DNA from: a virus
Length of the DNA: 22,402 bases
Reading direction: 5' to 3' (one strand)
IMG/VR virus record: IMGVR_UViG_3300017956_000147
Coordinates: 1 to 22,402 of that record
Position numbers and translations under genes: made by a program. This document shows, piece after piece, positions 2,439-22,150 of this stretch. Position 1 is the first letter of the stretch. Every line of letters starts with the position of its first letter. The notes under the pieces are model-generated. The model had not been told where the DNA came from, did no database searches, and saw nothing but the letters and a program-made list of their open reading frames with translations.

Positions 2439-3595
2439 TGGAAAACCAATTGCCTTTCGATATCAACTCGCTGACGCCAGAGCAAAAAGCGATTGTCATG
2501 GAGCAACTCATGCAAGCCGGCGGTCAGCCGCAGCAACAGCAGGGCAACTTTGCGACTAACCTTTTTCAGAGGAGGATTCTGCAGCCATTACAAGTAAGGC
2601 TGGGGATGCGTGACTCGCCTCAAGATGTGCTTAGGAAGCAGCAATCGGTATTGAATCAGTTTCAAATGCAAGACCTTATTGCTGATCAGTCGCGCCGAAA
2701 CCAAGCGGCCGAGTATATTGCAGGGCTCGATGCAGAAAGCGCTAAAGCGCTCGGTTTGAATCCAGCGCAACTTGCGCTTGCTCAAGCAAATCCGATAGAG
2801 GCTTACGACGATATCGTCAACAGGGCGTTTTCTCGCGAAACTTACAGCACAACTCCGCAGTACGGATTTACTAAAGATAAAGCTCGCATCGCTTATCAGC
2901 TTGGTGATCGAGGCGGCATGAAAATTATCGATGTCACGCCTACACCAGACACTTACACGGTCGATACTGGCGCAAGTATTCAGATCCTTAGCAGGCTGGA
3001 TAACACGGTCATTGACACAATTGAAAAAGAAATGACGCCGGATCAGGCAGCGCGTGCGCTAATCGAGAAAGATAGAAAAACTAAAGAGGACAAGAACAGA
3101 TTAGTAACCCGCGCAAAAAACCTTCGCACTGAGTTTAATAACATTACCAAAGAAATGCGTGACGTTGGTTTGGCTTACGGAAAAATTCAGGCGTCTTCGA
3201 CTGAGCCGAGCGCAGCAGGCGACATCGCGCTTCTAATTAACTACATGAAGATGCTCGATCCCGGATCGGTCGTAAGAGAAGGGGAGTTCGCGACAGCACA
3301 AAACGCTGGCGGCGTGGAGGCAAGAGTACGAGCGACTTACAACAATTTGTTGCGAGGAGAACGCTTAACAGAGGGCCAGCGGGCAGATTTCTTAGCTTCT
3401 GCCGGCAGAGTACTCGTGCCCTATCGCGATGAGTTCGAGGCAACCAAGCTGCGGTATTCCGCCTTAGCAGAAAGAGAGGGCGTCGCCCCTAGTGATGTCG
3501 TTATCAATGATCCGTTTAGCGGGTTTGGCGTTATTGAAAGAAATAGGCAGTGGTATATCGATCGAGGTTATACGCCACCAAAAGGTATGAAGTAA
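2438..3595 (+). CDS. Putative internal virion protein, 385 aa
   Basis: The ATG overlaps the preceding stop (TGATG) and the stop overlaps the next start (TAATG). The first 45 residues are Gln-rich and low complexity (SLTPEQKAIVMEQLMQAGG, then QPQQQQ). A helical middle follows, and the C-terminal third (about 270-385) contains MKMLDPGSVVREGEFATAQ, then RLTEGQRADFL. I recognise this pattern from predicted internal or structural proteins of podovirus-like phages. No catalytic residues of a lysozyme or transglycosylase are evident. Function as a DNA-ejection or internal core protein is inferred. Confidence 0.8.
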   Translation: MENQLPFDINSLTPEQKAIVMEQLMQAGGQPQQQQGNFATNLFQRRILQPLQVRLGMRDSPQDVLRKQQSVLNQFQMQDLIADQSRRNQAAEYIAGLDAESAKALGLNPAQLALAQANPIEAYDDIVNRAFSRETYSTTPQYGFTKDKARIAYQLGDRGGMKIIDVTPTPDTYTVDTGASIQILSRLDNTVIDTIEKEMTPDQAARALIEKDRKTKEDKNRLVTRAKNLRTEFNNITKEMRDVGLAYGKIQASSTEPSAAGDIALLINYMKMLDPGSVVREGEFATAQNAGGVEARVRATYNNLLRGERLTEGQRADFLASAGRVLVPYRDEFEATKLRYSALAEREGVAPSDVVINDPFSGFGVIERNRQWYIDRGYTPPKGMK

Positions 3596-5442
3596 TGGCA
3601 ACGCAATTAGAAATACTTTTAGAAAACATCGCTATCGCTGAAGCAAACGGTGCGAGCCCGAGAGATATCGAGGGGATGGTTTCCGATTTCGGGTACACAA
3701 AGTCTCGCTTTGAAAACGCCACCAAACGTCTTGCTGAAAGTGGCGGCAAAGTAACTCCTTCTAATGCGTTATCGAACACCCTGCGCGGTTTTACGCTCGG
3801 CGCGTCTGACGCAATCGAGGCGGGCGCTCGATCGCTTGTGGGACCAGAAACCTACTCACAAGAAAGGGCTGCAATCAGACTCGGTGAAGAGGAGTATGCT
3901 GAGGACTATCCCGGCAGAAAGTTTGCCCAGGAGTTCGCCGGTGCAATACCAACAAGTATCGCTGCATCACTGGCGGTGCCAGGATCTGGCGCTGCGGTAC
4001 AGACGAGCCGATTGGCTAACTTTATGCGCGCAGCGCCCGTAGCAATGGGCGAGGGCGCGGTAGCAGGTTACTTTGGCGGAGACGCTGACCCGCTCAGCGC
4101 TGATGCACTGGGAGACGCTGCTATCGGTGCAGGTGTGGGAGCCTTGTTCCCAGCGGCAGGTAGTGCGATCGGAGCAGGGAAGGACGCAATATCACCTGCA
4201 TTCTTGAACAGCGCGCAAGAACGCATTGTGGGGGAAGTGCTGCAGAACGCTGCAACGAATCCGCAAGCTGCCGCTCGTAACCTTGCAGAAAACGCAGAGG
4301 TGTTAGTGCCAGGTAGCGTGCCTACGACCGCGCAAGTAGCGCGCGATCCAGGGCTTGCAAGTTTCGAGACAGGCGTGCGTGGACTAGATCAAAGCGGCCG
4401 CATTGCTCAAAGAATCGGCGAGCAGCAGACCGCACGTGCAGTAGAAATGCAGAGGCTTGCAGGTACTGAGGATGACCTAGCTCGATTGCGAGATTATAGA
4501 GATATGCAAACGGCGCCGATGCGTGAGCAGGCGTTTAGTCAAGGCGGCATCATCGACAACCCCGCTGACATTATCGAATCTTTTACTGCGCTCGCTAATC
4601 GCCCTGGAATCAAAGGCAGGCGGTCGGTAAGAAAGATTATTGAGCGGTTTCGAGACGATGTAAAAATGCTCGCAAAAGACCCGGATGATCCTGACAACTT
4701 GCTGCCGATTGATCCGCGCGACCTTTACGCTGTGAGGCAAGAAATCGGCGACTTGATGTCTGGTCGTTTGCAAACAGATGAGGCTTCCGTTGCAAGGCTT
4801 TCAAAGGCGGAGCTTACCGAGTTAAAGCAACTTATTGACGATGAGATTGAGCTTGTTGCGCCGGGCTTTCAAGATTACTTGCAAACTTATGTAGCGAAGA
4901 GCAGGCCGGTAAATCGAATGGAAACAGTGCAAGACCTACAGCGCCGAGCGCAGGTCGGTACTGATCTACAGACCTTAGAGCCTGTGCTGAGCCCGTTCAA
5001 AATGCGCAATGCGATCAACGCAAGAAAGCGAGACTTCGATCGATTACCGCAGTCAAACAAGAAGCGTGTCAACGCAATCATGCGTGACCTTAATCGATCG
5101 ACGGCCGCGACAGCACCTGGCGTGAAAGTACCAGGTAGCGACACGTTTAAAAACTTATCGATGGCTGCGGCGATAGGGCGGATCTTCGGTGACAACGCAT
5201 CAGACTCAGCAATACCGTCCGGTTTGATGTCGCCATTTAGGACGCTTTACGGCATCACCAACTCCGATGAGAAAATGACAGAACTACTGGTGCAGGCTAT
5301 GCTTGATCCAGAACTGTCAGCAAGACTGTTGAGCAGGGCTACAGAAGAAAACGCTAACAACTTCGTAAACGCTTTGCGCAGGAGGATGCCCGCATTTTTC
5401 TATGGTCAAGGCGCCGCGATGGTTGGATTGAACGTAGATTAA
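3595..5442 (+). CDS. Putative internal virion/ejection protein with Gly/Ala-rich membrane-like segment
   Basis: A 615-aa protein starting at the ATG of the TAATG overlap; an in-frame ATG at 3550 would add 15 residues but lies inside the preceding gene. The N-terminal 50 residues are a charged helical domain. Residues about 60-200 are Gly/Ala-rich and amphipathic (FAQEFAGAIPTSIAASLAV; GDAAIGAGVGALFPAAGSA), typical of phage proteins that enter the host envelope. The rest is a long mixed helical region with RDLYAVRQEIGDLM. This is the last gene before the terminator and attP-like region, so it closes the structural operon. Role inferred, not shown by a known domain. Confidence 0.82.
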   Translation: MATQLEILLENIAIAEANGASPRDIEGMVSDFGYTKSRFENATKRLAESGGKVTPSNALSNTLRGFTLGASDAIEAGARSLVGPETYSQERAAIRLGEEEYAEDYPGRKFAQEFAGAIPTSIAASLAVPGSGAAVQTSRLANFMRAAPVAMGEGAVAGYFGGDADPLSADALGDAAIGAGVGALFPAAGSAIGAGKDAISPAFLNSAQERIVGEVLQNAATNPQAAARNLAENAEVLVPGSVPTTAQVARDPGLASFETGVRGLDQSGRIAQRIGEQQTARAVEMQRLAGTEDDLARLRDYRDMQTAPMREQAFSQGGIIDNPADIIESFTALANRPGIKGRRSVRKIIERFRDDVKMLAKDPDDPDNLLPIDPRDLYAVRQEIGDLMSGRLQTDEASVARLSKAELTELKQLIDDEIELVAPGFQDYLQTYVAKSRPVNRMETVQDLQRRAQVGTDLQTLEPVLSPFKMRNAINARKRDFDRLPQSNKKRVNAIMRDLNRSTAATAPGVKVPGSDTFKNLSMAAAIGRIFGDNASDSAIPSGLMSPFRTLYGITNSDEKMTELLVQAMLDPELSARLLSRATEENANNFVNALRRRMPAFFYGQGAAMVGLNVD

Positions 5443-5461
5443 CTACGGCAAAATTGCGGCA
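5443..5461 (+). repeat. Left integrase arm-type repeats (two copies)
   Basis: Two near-identical elements, ACTACGGCA at about 5442-5450 and ATTGCGGCA at 5453-5461, directly follow the last virion gene. They match the AATTACGGCA copies on the other side of the tRNA-like core. Paired arm clusters around a core are the known architecture of tyrosine-integrase attP sites. Assignment as P-arm sites is inferred. Confidence 0.5.
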
Positions 5462-5471
5462 AATAATCGAC

Positions 5472-5495
5472 GAGCCCAGTAAAAATGGGCTCTTT
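5472..5495 (+). terminator. Rho-independent terminator of the virion operon
   Basis: A perfect 7-bp inverted repeat, GAGCCCA and TGGGCTC, with a GTAAAAA loop, is followed by TTT. It lies 30 bases after the last virion stop and overlaps the left edge of the tRNA-like core. The T tract is short, so efficiency is uncertain. Confidence 0.65.
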
Positions 5496-5516
5496 CGATT
5501 CCGGCCCTGGGCACCA
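5494..5516 (+). other. attP: attP core resembling the 3' end of tRNA-Phe
   Basis: This 23-bp stretch reads as the end of a tRNA: T-loop TTCGATT, T-stem 3' half CCGGC, acceptor 3' half CCTGGGC, discriminator A and CCA. TTCGATTCC with CTGGGCACCA matches tRNA-Phe genes of several gammaproteobacteria as I remember them. There is no D-arm or anticodon arm upstream, so it is not a tRNA gene. It lies 160 bp before an integrase gene and between arm-type repeats, the classic position of an attP core that restores a tRNA gene after integration. The exact crossover length is unknown. Confidence 0.75.
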
Positions 5517-5635
5517 CGACCCTCCCCGCATATTCCCCCTAAACTCCATAAAAGCCCATAAAACAAGGGTTTACGGGGCTTCTATTCTACGCCGTTTTCG
5601 CTTATAACCACATTTCCCCATATTTTTACGGCGCC
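5517..5635. other. attP spacer, no gene seen
   Basis: About 120 bp between the tRNA-like core and the right arm repeats. It is AT-rich in its second half with short runs of A and T and contains no convincing reading frame. It may hold bending-protein (IHF-like) sites and the integrase promoter, but I could not define either. Confidence 0.4.
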
Positions 5636-5667
5636 AATTACGGCAAATTACGGCAGAAATTACGGCA
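5636..5667 (+). repeat. Right integrase arm-type repeats (three copies)
   Basis: Three exact direct copies of AATTACGGCA begin at 5636, 5646 and 5658, so they are spaced 10 and 12 bp, about one helical turn. They end just before the integrase ribosome-binding site. A related TTTACGGCG lies just upstream at 5626. They match the two repeats left of the core. They are probably arm-type integrase sites and may also let the integrase repress its own gene. Confidence 0.6.
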
Positions 5668-5676
5668 GGAGCGAGC

Positions 5677-6657
5677 GTGAAGGGAACATTTAGAAAGCGA
5701 GGGGATCGCTGGGAGGCCGGCGTTATGGTCGGCGGTCAAAGAAGATCTAAAACATTCGACACTAAGCGACTGGCGCAAGCCTGGGTCGCGGAGATGGTGA
5801 CAAAGGACACTGGCGTCGCGCTTTTGAACAGTACGCTTGCCGATCTTAGTGCGCGCTACGAGCGGGAGGTGAGCGAAGCGAAGAAAGGCGCCAGGTGGGA
5901 GATGATTCGCTTAAAGATGTACGAGCGCGATTATCCCAAGCTATTCGCTCGCAAACTTTCTAGCATTCAGCGTGAGGACATCGAGCAGCTAATCGATGAC
6001 CGGCTAAAGCAGGTGAAGCCGAGCACAGTCAATCGTGACCTCAACCTTATCGCTAACTTATTCACGCAGGCGCGCCGCTGGCGCATGATGACGCACAACC
6101 CGATGGCAGACATTAAGCGACCGAAAGATCCGCCGCCGCGCGACAGGCGCATCTCGCAGGAGGAGATCGATCGATTGCTTGTTGCCCTTGATCACGTTGA
6201 CGGCGCGCAGCCCAGAACGCAAAGACAGAAAGTCGCGACAGCATTTCTGATTGCGCTTGAGACGGCGATGCGCCAGGGCGAGATCTGCAAGGTGACGTGG
6301 GATGACGTGCATCTTGATGAGCGCTACGTTTTTCTGCCGCACACCATTACGAAGACTGGTGTGCAGCGCAACGTGCCTTTATCGAAAGAGGCAGTGCGTT
6401 TGATCGGCACATTACCAAGAGAGAAAGAAGAGATGCTCGGCGTGTCAGCCGGCGTGGTCAGTACAATGTTTAGGAAAGCAGTCGCTGACTCAGCGATCGA
6501 TAACTTGACGTTTCATGATAGTCGGCATGAGGCAACGACTCGGCTTGCTCAGAAACTGCTGGTGTTAGATCTTGCTCGCGTAACCGGGCATCGAGACATT
6601 AAGCAACTCATGACCTACTACAATAAAGATGCGCGCGAGCTCGCAGACTTGCTCTAG
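5677..6657 (+). CDS. int: Tyrosine recombinase (phage integrase)
   Basis: A 326-aa protein that catalyses site-specific recombination between attP and the host attachment site. The N-terminal part (about 1-45) is a short arm-binding-like domain (FRKRGDRWEAGVMVGG). The core-binding SAM-like domain spans about 50-145, and the catalytic domain about 155-320. The expected residues are present: R199 in AMRQGEI, K226, H280-x-x-R283 in FHDSRHEA, H305 in TGHRD and the nucleophile Tyr at 314 (possibly 315) in LMTYYN. The start is GTG with AGGAG five bases upstream. It is convergent with the excisionase-like gene, overlapping by four bases. Adjacent arm repeats and a tRNA-like core support the role. 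Confidence 0.96.
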   Translation: MKGTFRKRGDRWEAGVMVGGQRRSKTFDTKRLAQAWVAEMVTKDTGVALLNSTLADLSARYEREVSEAKKGARWEMIRLKMYERDYPKLFARKLSSIQREDIEQLIDDRLKQVKPSTVNRDLNLIANLFTQARRWRMMTHNPMADIKRPKDPPPRDRRISQEEIDRLLVALDHVDGAQPRTQRQKVATAFLIALETAMRQGEICKVTWDDVHLDERYVFLPHTITKTGVQRNVPLSKEAVRLIGTLPREKEEMLGVSAGVVSTMFRKAVADSAIDNLTFHDSRHEATTRLAQKLLVLDLARVTGHRDIKQLMTYYNKDARELADLL

Positions 6658-6884
6658 CCTTTGGCCCAGCGCACTACTTCCGATTTGAGCCAAACGAACC
6701 CGGTGCCGCGCGGCTTGGGAAAGCTATCTAGTTTGCTGACCGTGTCGCGGAAGTAACGACGATTGAAATGCAAGTAGGCAGCACACTCGTCAGTGTCCCA
6801 TAACACCTCGTCCTCTCGCGGCGCCTTCGCGATCACGTGCGCAATCTTTTCTGCGAGCAGATCGTAATCGATTTCTAACTCCAC
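6654..6884 (-). CDS. xis: Excisionase-like winged-helix DNA-binding protein
   Basis: A 76-aa protein and the last gene of the leftward operon. The segment WDTDECAAYLHFNRRYFRDT then FPKPRG and VWLKSEVVRWAKG has the MerR/AlpA/excisionase layout: a helix-turn-helix opening with an aromatic residue, an 'FPKP' turn, and a 'W-x(3)E-V-xxW' closing helix. The start is GTG, with GGAG seven bases upstream and overlapping the end of the preceding small gene. Its placement at the integrase end of the early operon fits control of excision. It could instead be an AlpA-type transcription regulator. Confidence 0.75.
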   Translation of the reverse strand: MELEIDYDLLAEKIAHVIAKAPREDEVLWDTDECAAYLHFNRRYFRDTVSKLDSFPKPRGTGFVWLKSEVVRWAKG

Positions 6885-10646: not shown

Positions 10647-11084
10647 TTACACAGCAGTATTAGGGGAAGGTAGAGCGACGAGAGGCGTGAAAACCGCGTA
10701 GCGCTCTGTCGAGACAGCGAGGTCAATCATTTCTTCTTTAATGTCGCTTTCGAGTTCAAAGTTAAATTGCTTATTATCAGTGCGAATAACAAAATGCGTT
10801 TTGTTGAAATCGAACACAGCCATCGCGAAATTCGACCGCGTCCAATCGTTCTCAAATCCTGGCGCTCGATTTTTGATGACGCGACGATGCACTTCTGACT
10901 CCATAAAATTTTTACAAGCAACGCCCGGAAGCTTGCCTTCGGTGTATTTACAAACTGTCTCGTGCCAAATTTCTATGCCGTCTTTTGCCGTGCTGCAATA
11001 AACCATGTCGCCCATAAAAATTTTGTTTATAGAGTTATAAATGAAGCTGCGAGCCTCTGTGGATAGGTTTCTAGGTATCTCCAT
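10647..11084 (-). CDS. Hypothetical protein co-transcribed with the repressor, 145 aa
   Basis: The ATG lies 14 bases inside the repressor gene with no clear ribosome-binding site, which points to translational coupling. The protein is mixed alpha/beta (GDMVYCSTAKDGIEIWHETV; FAMAVFDFNKTHFVIRTDN), soluble and without Cys clusters or known motifs. The AT-richer codon use resembles that of the repressor. As the only partner of the repressor it would be expressed in the lysogen, so it might be a lysogenic-conversion or immunity accessory factor. That role is inferred from position only. Confidence 0.75.
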   Translation of the reverse strand: MEIPRNLSTEARSFIYNSINKIFMGDMVYCSTAKDGIEIWHETVCKYTEGKLPGVACKNFMESEVHRRVIKNRAPGFENDWTRSNFAMAVFDFNKTHFVIRTDNKQFNFELESDIKEEMIDLAVSTERYAVFTPLVALPSPNTAV

Positions 11085-11457
11085 TACTAATCTTGCTGAC
11101 CCCCATCTTCATAAATTGTTGTTTTACACTCAACAGCGCCTCGTATTGGCCGTCGCTGAGCAGCTCGATGTCTTGAAATGCGTCTAGTCGCTCGCTCTTC
11201 AACGACTTTTCTGTTCTAAAAAATACTTCATCGATTAACCAGGCTGGCTCAACCGCGAAGATCTTGCACAGCGCACTAATAACCTCCATTGGTGGTAGCC
11301 GGAAGCGCCCCGTCATTTTTGGCTGCTCCCATTTGGCTATTGCGTTATGAGTCACATCGACTCCATGTTTCTTTAACTCCTCCGCCAACGAACGAAGCGA
11401 CATCTCGCGCGCTGTTCGGAGCGTTTTGAGTCTTTCGTGGAAAGGCACTCTGCCCAT
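11071..11457 (-). CDS. XRE-family repressor (CI-like)
   Basis: A 128-aa protein from ATG at 11457, with AAGAGG just upstream; the open frame reaches 11604 but that part spans the control region. The N-terminal helix-turn-helix domain is clear: FHERLKTLRTAREMSLRSLA, then VDVTHNAIAKWEQ. The C-terminal part is short and helical (SDGQYEALLSVKQQFMKMG), with no LexA/CI peptidase domain. Induction would therefore not proceed by the usual RecA-stimulated self-cleavage. It is divergent from a YdaS/Cro-like gene across about 130 bp holding operator motifs, the usual layout of a lysogeny switch. Confidence 0.85.
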   Translation of the reverse strand: MGRVPFHERLKTLRTAREMSLRSLAEELKKHGVDVTHNAIAKWEQPKMTGRFRLPPMEVISALCKIFAVEPAWLIDEVFFRTEKSLKSERLDAFQDIELLSDGQYEALLSVKQQFMKMGVSKISNGDT

Positions 11458-11482
11458 ACCAACCTCTTGTTGTAAATGTCCT

Positions 11483-11513
11483 GACAGTAAACCAGAGGTT
11501 GCACCTAACTGTC
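11483..11513. promoter_or_regulatory. Inverted repeat in the repressor leader
   Basis: GACAGT at 11483-11488 and ACTGTC at 11508-11513 form a perfect 6-bp inverted repeat separated by 19 bp, in the leader between the repressor start and its promoter. It may be an additional operator pair for the repressor or for Cro. Confidence 0.3.
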
Positions 11514-11515
11514 CA

Positions 11516-11544
11516 CTAAAATAGACACCTGTTTTGCATGTCAA
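11516..11544 (-). promoter_or_regulatory. Repressor-gene promoter
   Basis: A consensus TTGACA on the minus strand (11544-11539) is followed by AT-rich -10 candidates, TATTTT at 15 bp or TTTTAG at 17 bp. The operator copy at 11522-11532 lies between the boxes, consistent with autoregulation. Spacing is not ideal, so the exact -10 is uncertain. Confidence 0.5.
11522..11532 (+). promoter_or_regulatory. Operator-like motif, copy B
   Basis: TAGACACCTGT, identical to copy A, lies between the divergent repressor and Cro-like genes. It sits within the predicted repressor promoter and just upstream of the rightward promoter candidate. Confidence 0.6.
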
Positions 11545-11561
11545 CCAAAGTGTACTAAAGT
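11534..11561 (+). promoter_or_regulatory. Rightward early promoter candidate
   Basis: TTGCAT (11534-11539) and TAAAGT (11556-11561) are 16 bp apart, about 30 bases before the Cro-like start. The boxes match the consensus only partly. A tandem decamer, ACCAAAGTGT then ACTAAAGTGC (11544-11563), covers the spacer and -10 and may be a binding site for the Cro-like protein. Confidence 0.4.
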
Positions 11562-11591
11562 GCGCAAATCGAAACACAATGGAGCAGCGAG

Positions 11592-11786
11592 ATGACACCC
11601 CCATGCATTTGGAATGAGATCAACGTGAGCCGACTAGCGAAGTCGTTGGATGTTGCGCGGATGACTATTTACAAATGGAAATCGAGCGAGAGGGGTATCC
11701 CAGCCGAGCGCGCGATCGAGATCGAGGAAATCACGGGCATCAAGCGTGCGCGCTTACGTCCAGATTTGTGGCCGGCAGATGAGTGA
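11592..11786 (+). CDS. YdaS/Cro-like antirepressor DNA-binding protein
   Basis: A 64-aa protein with GGAG ten bases upstream of the ATG. The sequence VSRLAKSLDVARMTIYKWKS, then GIPAERAIEIEEITG and LRPDLWP, is the compact helix-turn-helix pattern of the YdaS/Cro family. It is the first gene of the rightward operon and divergent from the XRE repressor. It probably represses lysogeny genes and promotes lytic replication. Its stop overlaps the primase start by eight bases. Confidence 0.88.
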   Translation: MTPPCIWNEINVSRLAKSLDVARMTIYKWKSSERGIPAERAIEIEEITGIKRARLRPDLWPADE

Positions 11787-17585: not shown

Positions 17586-18335
17586 ATGAAAACAAGAAGC
17601 ATCAGGGGCGAGTACCGCAAGCGCCGCCAGGTTCAGGAGCAAGCAGAAAGGAGAGCAACCATGATCTACGGATACACCCGCGTAAGCACGGAAGAGCAAG
17701 CCGACGGCACGTCCCTCGCAACGCAACGCACCATGATTCAGGGCGTTGCTCTCGCGAGCCAGCTCCCGACGGACATCACGTACCTAGCCGACCCCGGCGT
17801 GAGCGGCAGCGTGCCGTTCTTCGCCAGACAGGCTGTCGCGACTCTTGCCCTGCAGCCCGGCGACATCATTATCTGCAGCGCCCTTGATCGATTTAGCCGC
17901 GACGCGCGCGATTGCCTTAACACGATCCACGAGCTCAAGGAGCTCGGCGTGCGTTTGTTCTTGAACGGCCACGGCGACGTGACCGACGAGGGCAACGTCA
18001 CAGCGCGCCTCATGCTTGAAATCATGGCAGCGTTCGCCGGCCACGAGCGCCGCGTGATCAAGGAGCGCACAACGCGTGGCCGGCGCGCGAAGCGCGAGCG
18101 GGGCGGCTTTATCGGCGGCGAAGCGCCCTGGGGCTGCGCCATCGAGGGTGAGGGCAAAGAAGCGATCGTTGTCGAGCTCCCGCAGCGCCGCGAGGCGATC
18201 GGCAAGATGCGCGAGCTCCGCGACGCAGGAAAAAGCTATCGCGACATAGCGCAACTCATTTCTGCGCAATACAATCTCGCCACCTCTCACATGAAAGTTA
18301 AGCGAGCATTGGATGCCGAAAGCATCAGCCCCTAA
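17586..18335 (+). CDS. Serine recombinase (resolvase/invertase type)
   Basis: A 249-aa frame. The recombinase proper starts at M26 (ATG 17661, AAAGGAG seven bases upstream) with the family opening MIYGYTRVSTEEQ. Counting from there, the nucleophile is S9 with R7; DRFSRDARD at 76-84 holds the conserved Arg residues, and HERRVIKERT at 128-137 starts the long helix. The C-terminal SYRDIAQLISAQYN is a helix-turn-helix. The 17586 ATG also has an excellent site (GGAGGAG, five bases upstream) and adds a basic 25-residue tail, so two forms are possible. It lies between terS and terL and overlaps terL by 23 bases. Sites and substrate are unknown. Confidence 0.9.
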   Translation: MKTRSIRGEYRKRRQVQEQAERRATMIYGYTRVSTEEQADGTSLATQRTMIQGVALASQLPTDITYLADPGVSGSVPFFARQAVATLALQPGDIIICSALDRFSRDARDCLNTIHELKELGVRLFLNGHGDVTDEGNVTARLMLEIMAAFAGHERRVIKERTTRGRRAKRERGGFIGGEAPWGCAIEGEGKEAIVVELPQRREAIGKMRELRDAGKSYRDIAQLISAQYNLATSHMKVKRALDAESISP

Positions 18336-19939: not shown

Positions 19940-22150
19940 ATGGGGCTCTTCGATTACTTCTCTGAGCTCGCCCAGCGCGCCGCAGAAAGAGAGTTAGATC
20001 GGCAGCGCATTATGGGCGAGCAGACGCGCGCCTTCGCTGATCAATACACCCCCTCTCAAGCCCAGGCGGCGTATCTTGCTGGCTCGATGGCTCCTGCGGC
20101 CGCGACGGCTGATGCGGCCGGACAGATGGCGCCGTTCCCGCCGGCAGACCTGCCATTGGAGCAACTCCCGCAATACATGCAAAGCGCGCAACCAATGCCC
20201 AGCATGCAGCAGAATTTGCAGCAGGGTAATTATTTAGACGCCGGTTTACAGGGTGTTGGGTTATTAGGGGATGCATTGACCCTTGCAGGTATTGGCGTGC
20301 CATTGAAGGCGCTGTCTAAGACAGGCCAAGCCATGCGTCAATCGACAAACCTGCTTGAGCCTAGCGACGTACCTCGCCTGCAGTTCACGGGTGATAGCGC
20401 GCCACAGCAGCTCGCTGAGGGTACCAGCCGTCAGTTCAGCACGACAGGCAAGTATCGAGGCGCTCCTGCAGATATTAAGTCGCCTGCGAAGCTGGCAGCT
20501 ATGCAGCGCAAGCTAAGAGATTACGCCGAGAAGGGCGCTGATTATCGTTTGTGGTACGAGCAAACCAACGACGCTATCAAGCAACAAACTGCCGGCCGTC
20601 CAGGCAGACAAGATCAATACGCGGCGACGGCCGCTATCACCAGCCAGGGCACGAGCGTGCCGGCGAACGCGACGATGGCCATGAAGGGCTACAACCAGGC
20701 GATAGTCGGTGACGATATTGCAACAGGAAGATTCCCTTCATCGATGGGGCCGGCCATTCAAGACGTGTTTAGCGGAACGTCTGCGCCTCTCGGGCCTAAG
20801 CGCGAGCCGTTTTACGAGGCACTCAACCAGGAAGCTGGGCGCGCAAGGCAAACAAACGACATTCGGCAGGCGCGTGCATTCGGCTACAAAAACCCAGACG
20901 GCAGCACATTCGATGGCGGGCTAAGTGAGGCTCAGCATCGATTCATGGATGAGGAAACAGCCAAGCTGGTCGAGTTCGCGCGCAAGAACAAATTGGGCGG
21001 TCATGACGATTGGAATGCAGACCGAGTGCAGGCCGCTATTTGGATTGCACAAAAGGCAGAGGAAGAGGGCACATCGATCGCTGAAGCGGGGCGCATGTTC
21101 CAAGACTTTACGCCGCAAGCAATGATTAGAACCGAGGCGGCCCCCTCGGCTTCTCTGGGCCATCTGGGCGGTCTTCTAGATGAGAACAATGCACAGGCAT
21201 TAAGAGACTTCAGCGCCCTTCAGGATGAAGCCATGCTCACGCCAGGCGGTCTTGATTTCATGACTGCGCAATCTGGCGCGATGACCTCGCCAGCGTACTC
21301 CGGCCCTGGCGCCTATATGGGACAAAGCAATCCCGGCGTCGGCATCCCTGTGTCGGTAGGCAAATCTACAGAAACCGTTGTTGACCCTGTGTCTGGTAAG
21401 GGTATCGAAGCATCCATCATGGACCCCGCGAGCCGGAAGGTTGTCGAAGCCTCTGCAGCCATGCAGGGCTTGCTTAGAGCGCAAGACACTGTCGGTTACA
21501 CATCGATAACGAAGGCACCGAACGCTGCCTCTCGCAATGCGCTAGAGGTCAACCTCGGTCAGACCATATCGCCCGAGCAGATCGTTCGACTAGAGAAAGC
21601 GATTAATGAGGAGTTTGGTGAAGGGCTGTTGATACCACTGCACACCCGCAACGGAGTGTCGATCATCGCTGCCGGCCCTGATGAGCTCAAGACTCTCGTC
21701 GGGGATACAGCGCCCAAGAAAACGCCTCAGTGGCAGAAACGTCTTAACTCGCTGGTTCGTAATGAGCTCTCACCAGAAAGCACTGACTGGGGATTGAATA
21801 CGGGCGACCTGGTCGGCGATACAGAAAATTGGACATACACCCCAAGCAGGTACTTGGCGCCGCTCGAAGAAGTCGGCCCAGAAATGCGTGGGTTGCTTGA
21901 TGCCGGAGCGAGAAAGATTTCGCCCGTTTTAGAAAAGCTCGACTCGGAGCTGGTCAAAGAATTCCCTGCAGCGGGTGAGCGCAGCGTGATTGTTACTCGT
22001 GTTCGTCAGGCTCTTGCTGAGAAGGGAATCGCAGGGGTTCGGGAGCTGGTGGATAAGGGGCTAGTCCCTGCTTTTGCGCTAGGCGTTCTTCTTGGCGCGC
22101 AAGCTCTTCCGTCAGCCACTGAAGATCAGCGTCCCACATCTTTGATCTGA
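19940..22150 (+). CDS. Large hypothetical protein between terL and portal, 736 aa
   Basis: Starts directly at the preceding stop. The N-terminal 100 residues are Ala/Gln/Met/Pro-rich; a hydrophobic stretch follows at about 103-123 (GLQGVGLLGDALTLAGIGVP). The segment DYRLWYEQTNDAI, YAATAAITSQGTSVPANATM and MKGYNQAIVG (about 200-256) resembles a domain I associate with large uncharacterised phage proteins such as DUF7178; I am not sure of the match. The rest is mixed alpha/beta, ending with a hydrophobic tail (LVPAFALGVLLGAQALP). Long, multi-domain and next to the portal, it may be a virion-associated polyvalent protein. No catalytic motif was recognised. Confidence 0.82.
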   Translation: MGLFDYFSELAQRAAERELDRQRIMGEQTRAFADQYTPSQAQAAYLAGSMAPAAATADAAGQMAPFPPADLPLEQLPQYMQSAQPMPSMQQNLQQGNYLDAGLQGVGLLGDALTLAGIGVPLKALSKTGQAMRQSTNLLEPSDVPRLQFTGDSAPQQLAEGTSRQFSTTGKYRGAPADIKSPAKLAAMQRKLRDYAEKGADYRLWYEQTNDAIKQQTAGRPGRQDQYAATAAITSQGTSVPANATMAMKGYNQAIVGDDIATGRFPSSMGPAIQDVFSGTSAPLGPKREPFYEALNQEAGRARQTNDIRQARAFGYKNPDGSTFDGGLSEAQHRFMDEETAKLVEFARKNKLGGHDDWNADRVQAAIWIAQKAEEEGTSIAEAGRMFQDFTPQAMIRTEAAPSASLGHLGGLLDENNAQALRDFSALQDEAMLTPGGLDFMTAQSGAMTSPAYSGPGAYMGQSNPGVGIPVSVGKSTETVVDPVSGKGIEASIMDPASRKVVEASAAMQGLLRAQDTVGYTSITKAPNAASRNALEVNLGQTISPEQIVRLEKAINEEFGEGLLIPLHTRNGVSIIAAGPDELKTLVGDTAPKKTPQWQKRLNSLVRNELSPESTDWGLNTGDLVGDTENWTYTPSRYLAPLEEVGPEMRGLLDAGARKISPVLEKLDSELVKEFPAAGERSVIVTRVRQALAEKGIAGVRELVDKGLVPAFALGVLLGAQALPSATEDQRPTSLI

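Follow-up and report, generated by a model that had tools for sequence, protein, structure and literature searches.

Organization of the attachment region

The stretch of viral DNA analyzed here, hereafter the window, is an IMG/VR record 22,402 bp long with a tyrosine integrase gene (int). Upstream of int, a 23-nt core (TTCGATTCCGGCCCTGGGCACCA) is flanked by two left arm repeats and by three right arm repeats that match one another exactly (Table 1). The core consists, in order, of the T-loop (TTCGATT), the 3' strand of the T-stem (CCGGC), the 3' strand of the acceptor stem, the discriminator A and the CCA of a tRNA. No complete tRNA was found by ARAGORN in the whole window, the tRNA end standing alone as in an attP. 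The exact repeat AATTACGGCA starts at 5636, 5646 and 5658, which gives spacings of 10 and 12; an earlier note, made from the letters of the window, had placed the core, the two left arms and the three exact right arms, with these spacings, correctly. Shuffled sequence would contain 0.56 exact copies of TTACGGCA on average, whereas the window contains four, of which three are clustered within 30 bp. With one mismatch allowed, the arm pattern showed no enrichment across the window as a whole (13 occurrences vs 10.65 expected), and the evidence for the arms is therefore their clustering and conservation, not their count.

Table 1. Coordinates of the attachment region and of genes discussed in the text.
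Feature	Position	Strand	Basis or remark
Left arm repeat 1, CTACGGCA	5443..5450	+	sequence
Left arm repeat 2, TTGCGGCA	5454..5461	+	sequence
Terminator-like hairpin	5472..5492	+	abuts core; 30 bp past rightward gene 3550-5442
Core: tRNA 3' end from T-loop to CCA, most likely of tRNA-Leu(UAA)	5494..5516	+	
Degenerate fourth right arm-like unit, TTACGGCG	5626..5633	+	
Right arm repeat 1, TTACGGCA	5638..5645	+	
Right arm repeat 2, TTACGGCA	5648..5655	+	
Right arm repeat 3, TTACGGCA	5660..5667	+	
Tyrosine integrase, 326 aa, GTG start	5677..6657	+	PF00589, E 3.9e-23; phrog_1
Predicted arm-binding domain, codons 1-45 (R8, E13, G15)	5677..5811	+	structure model, covariation
Small HTH protein, candidate excisionase by position only	6654..6884	-	phrog_4996, phrog_668 HTH; overlaps int end
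Repressor-like HTH protein	11071-11604	-	family match only
Cro/YdaS-like protein	11592-11786	+	family match only

The hairpin that abuts the core folds with -16.7 kcal/mol (z -5.04, 5466-5502), was also found by a terminator-like scan and is similar to sequence carried by most relatives; it may act as a terminator. Its 5' strand, GAGCCCAG, is also able to pair with CTGGGC of the core. An Rfam search of 5300-5700 returned a single match far under the gathering score, which was taken as chance.

The product of int is a putative phage integrase of the tyrosine recombinase type, as judged from the PF00589 match and from six residues (R199, K226, H280, R283, H305 and Y314) that were invariant in 13 relatives and which we take to be the tyrosine recombinase catalytic motif. 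The predicted N-terminus comprises strands at residues 4-8, 11-18 and 21-27 followed by a helix at 30-45, with a similar result when the domain was modelled alone, and in the model residue 8 lies on a strand neighbouring that of residues 13 and 15. Among fold matches to the whole model, lambda Int and Tn1549 Int lead. The isolated N-terminal domain model had no significant match in the PDB, its best rows being dsRNA-binding domains, with an AP2 domain in sixth place (E 0.22).

To the left of the core, the two left arms and the reading frame 3550-5442 are found with no tRNA body, and int lies to the right; the same unsplit arrangement is seen in related viral loci. Since the site is unsplit, the DNA of the window is most likely not integrated, and the absent tRNA body, the left arms and the continuing reading frame, like those of the relatives, thus bear out what the earlier note had proposed. 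Its further statement that phage genes lie on both sides holds on the right, where int is; the gene on the left, 3550-5442, is called a phage gene by its place in the record, because it has no family match. The long rightward proteins encoded at 132-2075, 3550-5442 and 19940-22150 had no Pfam or PHROGs match at E 0.001. A terminase lies 12.6 kb to the right of int in the window and about 12.5 kb to the right of it in the related 35.7 kb record L023. With its unsplit site and its repressor-like and Cro-like genes, the window, as far as family matches tell, represents a temperate phage. As for the candidate excisionase of the window (6654..6884), an annotated putative excisionase gene on the same strand lies right behind int in phage TRS1 and one gene further in Cr-LKS3. 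Directly ahead of the terminase, at 17586-18335 on the plus strand, the window also encodes a serine recombinase (Resolvase, phrog_95/phrog_125), and thus one phage carries two kinds of site-specific recombinase.

Conservation of the arrangement in related phages

When viral contigs were scanned with the integrase, 35 loci were retrieved, and 24 of them had a whole integrase 67-100% identical to that of the window. Two left arms, core, right arms and int were present in 22 of these 24 (L003-L006 and L008-L025), the other two (L002 and L007) being cut upstream. Three further loci with integrases of 54-55% identity (L028, L030 and L031) share the layout, bringing the related loci to 25, all with similar spacing. 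Many of the 25 are near copies, and together with the window they reduce to 16 distinct arm sets. The letters of the core differ slightly among relatives. At 38% identity (L033 and L034), repeats were present and a core of the window type was absent. In five loci (L010, L011, L012, L015 and L016), GCCGGTTCGACCCC, which resembles the 5' half of a tRNA T-arm, lies to the left of the left arms.

A chromosomal relative was found in Marinobacterium litorale DSM 23545 (G001; L587 and L586), with an integrase 50% identical to that of the window. Here, int and its three ACAGCA right arms lie behind a tRNA-Leu(UAA), while on a different contig the same core, without a tRNA body, stands behind two ACAGCA left arms. 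Both core copies differ by one base, G in the tRNA copy and T in the other. The first contig encodes a portal protein (phrog_1216) and a virion RNA polymerase (phrog_2206); the second, to which it is not joined, encodes a phage exonuclease at its end. The two ends are probably attL and attR of one prophage, presumably of the N4 type.

The layout noted at 5443-5667 is confirmed. Its reading as the intact attP of the tyrosine integrase encoded by the adjoining int is supported by this layout, its conservation, the PF00589 match and the M. litorale ends, one an attL and the other resembling an attR.

Target tRNA of the core

The exact 23-mer was searched in an even sample of the class Gammaproteobacteria (369 genomes), and was found in 26 of them at 29 places. 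ARAGORN assigned 25 of these places to tRNA-Leu(UAA) and none to tRNA-Phe, while four were partial copies not called as tRNA. The core is thus identical to tRNA 3' ends in the sampled genomes, which may not include the host of the window. In genome G190, the 23-mer occurs twice, 8.36 kb apart (L543 and L558), once in a tRNA-Leu(UAA) and once without a tRNA body, and both copies adjoin TTGGGTAA repeats; this pair is perhaps a small element at the same site with different arms. Among viral contigs, 24 stretches carried the 23-mer, at least 5 of them from close kin of the window phage, and ARAGORN called two tRNA-Phe and four tRNA-Leu(UAA). As the 23-mer ends both kinds of tRNA in viral contigs, its letters alone are not decisive.

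We also scanned genomes with an integrase alignment and inspected the best 80 loci among the matches listed. None of these 80 was a prophage with the window's own integrase, the top identity being 53%. A tRNA ending at most 320 bp before int was present at 45 of the best 80 listed loci, namely 35 Leu (17 of them UAA), 5 Thr, 2 Phe, 2 Arg and 1 Cys; the Cys row (L065) is a wrong-start artefact, a tRNA-Leu(UAA) adjoining its int. The nearest listed integrases with an upstream tRNA (L064, 53%; L061, 52%; L062, 50%) all lie behind tRNA-Leu(UAA), with 158-172 bp between tRNA and int compared to 161 bp in the window by the same count. These are followed, among the matches listed, by L126 (49%) at tRNA-Leu(GAG) and, at 47%, by tRNA-Leu(UAA) twice, Phe and Thr, and listed chromosomal relatives of 47% identity or less are also found at tRNA-Phe, Thr and Arg. 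No nearby tRNA was found for L060 (51%) and L063 (48%). Taken together, the 3' end of a host tRNA-Leu(UAA) gene is the most likely target of the core.

Two other readings of the site were weighed against this one. The earlier note had taken tRNA-Phe as the target, and a true attP that integrates at tRNA-Phe in a host outside the sampled Gammaproteobacteria would be compatible with several observations: in two viral contigs (L041 and L043), a tRNA-Phe(GAA) ends in the exact 23-mer, several truncated copies of it occur in a tRNA-Phe-like context, and 2 of the 45 listed chromosomal relatives with an upstream tRNA have Phe (L070 and L135). Against it stand the 29 exact places in 369 genomes, with 25 Leu(UAA) and not one Phe, and the three nearest listed chromosomal integrases, all gammaproteobacterial and all at tRNA-Leu(UAA). 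A tRNA that matches the 23 bp does exist, as the note expected; it is tRNA-Leu(UAA), whereas no tRNA-Phe gene ending in the 23-mer was detected in the 369 genomes, and prophages with the window's integrase beside tRNA-Phe did not appear among the listed matches. We accordingly consider tRNA-Phe an unlikely target of the window, even though its host may lie outside the sampled genomes, and give this reading only a slim chance. A tRNA fragment left by chance or degeneration, with the true crossover elsewhere, would agree with the lack of a recombination product for the window phage, but the tRNA-like core is kept between the arms at the same place in 25 related loci, and one relative, M. litorale, has two apparent end products, which makes such a remnant highly improbable.

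Variation of the arms and covariation with integrase residues

Arm sites are written here as TT n1 n2 n3 n4 n5 n6, the window having TT ACGGCA. Their letters vary between relatives (ACGGC in the window, AGC-type, ACC-type, GCC-type, GTCCC and GGTCAC), and the arms largely change together, with two close versions mixed within one phage in L005, L014, L018, L023 and L024. At n3 and n4, left and right arms of one phage agreed in 52 of 64 comparisons (52 of 60 without L030, which is in a shifted register), compared to 36.5% agreement with other lineages.

A wider set was assembled from 530 sequences including the window, 494 of which had an integrase match starting by residue 30. Left out were 144 with less than 70 nt upstream, 5 short ones and 3 without a start, and the remaining 342 comprised 231 that were distinct in the first 60 residues; the absence of an arm call for 81 and a wrong start in L337 reduced these to 149 loci. 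As regards the 144 loci with less than 70 nt ahead of int, many loci of the viral collection start right with the first codon, so arm sites are often lost at predicted prophage ends. A first arm caller called 168 of the 231 (null 3.9%) and picked some AT-rich repeats, while a tightened version called 150 (null 0.95%), both nulls being plain letter shuffles. The caller used DNA only, but was fixed after residues and arms had been compared side by side. Moreover, since the rule was guessed from the same loci, the statistics on the 149 loci are not independent of that guess; the held-out test alone is.

Among the 149 loci, n3 was G in 81 of 85 with E15 and in 9 of 64 with other residues, n4 was C in 89 of 104 with R13 compared to 7 of 45, and n5 was C in 93 of 97 with R8 compared to 13 of 52, which leaves 13, 22 and 17 exceptions for n3, n4 and n5, respectively. 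When one representative was kept per 80% catalytic identity (108 loci), the counts with and without the respective letter were 54/3 vs 8/43 for n3, 61/11 vs 6/30 for n4 and 58/3 vs 10/37 for n5. By shuffle-corrected mutual information over 313 columns filled to at least 90%, column 15 ranked first for n3 (0.72 bits, catalytic-domain maximum 0.29), column 13 first for n4 (0.37 bits vs 0.23) and column 8 first for n5 (0.50 bits vs 0.23).

Shared descent was addressed with independent pairs. On a tree of catalytic columns, 9.5 pairs changed the same way and 0.0 the opposite way for 15/n3 (median p 0.002), and 7.7 against 0.2 for 13/n4 (median p 0.008), while 8/n5 (4.1 against 0.2, p 0.125) was not significant. 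With 282 columns scored alike, column 15 came first for n3 (9.5; catalytic maximum 4.9), followed by column 6 (6.4), column 13 first for n4 (7.5; catalytic maximum 4.7) and column 8 third for n5 (3.9; catalytic maximum 3.6), behind columns 55 and 24. A whole-integrase tree built without columns 8, 13 and 15 gave 11.3 to 0.0 for n3 (median p 0.001), 9.5 to 0.5 for n4 (p 0.006) and 5.1 to 0.2 for n5 (p 0.06). Greedy pairing by catalytic identity put column 6 above column 15 for n3, column 13 first for n4 and column 8 third for n5. The association persisted in pairs matched on the N-terminal domain (p 0.0007, 0.002 and 0.001 for n3, n4 and n5), where columns 15, 13 and 8 ranked 3, 13 and 3, others scoring equal or better; a tree of the N-terminal domain only left too few pairs. 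The window itself breaks the n3 rule, having G15 with n3 = G. Arginine with guanine and glutamate with cytosine, on the opposite strand, are usual contacts, and we infer that residues 8, 13 and 15 touch arm bases n5, n4 and n3.

The rule, once fixed, was applied to 22 phage and plasmid records unused before. Two were left out (L564, with its match in two pieces, and L576, with an unclear start), and of the other 20, six had no arm call, six were near-duplicates of training rows and eight, with less than 90% N-terminal identity to the training set, were counted. The prediction was correct in 7 of the 8 at each base, compared to 4, 5 and 5 when always guessing the rule's letter. Correct at all three bases were, for instance, 1127AP1 (N8, R13, Q15; GCACA) and Pusillimonas (S8, R13, E15; ACGCA). 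The single miss, Pm86, was wrong at all three bases and is an arm miscall, in which an AT repeat was taken despite an exact TTACGCCA pair. Five of the six near-duplicates were correct at all three bases, and L579 was wrong at two.

Cassette exchange and linkage

The pair L008 and L017 has 94-100% identity in the bins between -600 and -245 and 89-97% in int past codon 60, but only 68-70% from -60 to +60, with differences in 19 of 46 columns of the right arms and in 18 of 60 columns of the first codons. Conversely, L008 and L022 are 93-97% identical from -60 to +120 and 24-88% elsewhere, differing in 2 of 46 columns of the right arms and in 2 of 60 columns of the first codons. This identity pattern indicates that the right arms can be exchanged together with the codons of the N-terminal domain as a unit. 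Three bases differ between the left arms of L008 and L017, each of them n3 or n4.

Because the right arms adjoin the domain codons, linked inheritance could add to the association, and one may ask whether it accounts for all of it, neighbours moving together without any specific recognition. The cassette exchange just described is real, and pairs matched on the N-terminal domain fail to single out columns 8, 13 and 15, both of which speak for linkage. However, for each base a single column stands out, and few others in the N-terminal domain do so, the main exception to this specificity being column 6 for n3; the left arms, about 200 bp off beyond the core, change too in L008 and L017, at n3 or n4; and the R/C and E/G pairs can be read as the arginine-guanine and glutamate-cytosine contacts noted above. 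Linkage is a real confounder, but the column specificity and the left arms argue that it does not account for everything, and linked inheritance as the only source of the association is in our judgement unlikely.

Proposed mechanism and its implications

In the mechanism that we propose, recombination by the window's own integrase would take place between the 23-nt core at 5494-5516 and the 3' end of a host tRNA gene, most likely one for tRNA-Leu(UAA), and would leave the tRNA restored. The five arm sites, two on the left and three on the right, would be bound by the enzyme's N-terminal domain, while its C-terminal domains would act at the core in a lambda-like manner, and a β-hairpin would largely read the arms, residue 8 specifying n5, residue 13 n4 and residue 15 n3. 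An intact temperate-phage attP whose core targets tRNA-Leu(UAA) and whose arms are read by residues 8, 13 and 15 is, as a whole, very probable. With somewhat less assurance, we also consider it probable that, in a large integrase family, a mostly one-residue-one-base arm code lies on one face of the β-hairpin (8/n5, 13/n4, 15/n3) and that this code has changed by the swap of a cassette of about 200 bp with the right arms and the domain codons, the left arms following at the bases that are read and the choice of tRNA by the remainder of the enzyme being kept.

The attP of the window is ordinary in itself, yet it led to a family in which many arm alphabets are in use. Should the rule be true, arm sites could be predicted from the integrase sequence and true prophage ends could be checked, and cassette exchange plus point changes would explain how five dispersed sites change at once. 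Natural pairs of the L008/L017 type suit testing of this explanation.

Comparison with known systems

Among the matches listed from open-licence literature, searched by titles and opening abstracts, no treatment of covariation between arm sites and integrase residues was found. Acinetobacter phage vB_AbaS_TRS1, one of the closest known systems, has an integrase 43.6% identical to that of the window, an annotated putative attP some 165 bp upstream of int and two TTACGCCA repeats; unlike in the window, its arms have other letters, which fit its R13, E15 and R8. The M. litorale element shares with the window the two left and three right arms and a similar core geometry, and differs from it in its arm letters and in carrying the portal and virion RNA polymerase genes.

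Tyrosine recombinases with an arm-binding domain, including those of Tn916 and Tn1549, are treated in a classification (PMC8138268), and like the Tn916/Tn1549 type, the window integrase is predicted to combine arm-binding, core-binding and catalytic domains; Tn1549 Int is also among the best fold matches to its model. Lambda Int, as described in PMC4880445, has an N-terminal domain and acts with five arm-type sites and core sites. Like the lambda Int/attP system, the window combines a tyrosine integrase that has a small predicted N-terminal arm-binding domain with arm sites that flank the core, its repeats lying on both sides as in lambda, and the lambda Int structures 1z1b, 1z1g and 5j0n are nearest to the predicted fold of its integrase. 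The two nevertheless differ in that the integrases are only 18-21% identical in alignments and that the core of the window is a tRNA 3' end, the attB of lambda not being a tRNA gene.
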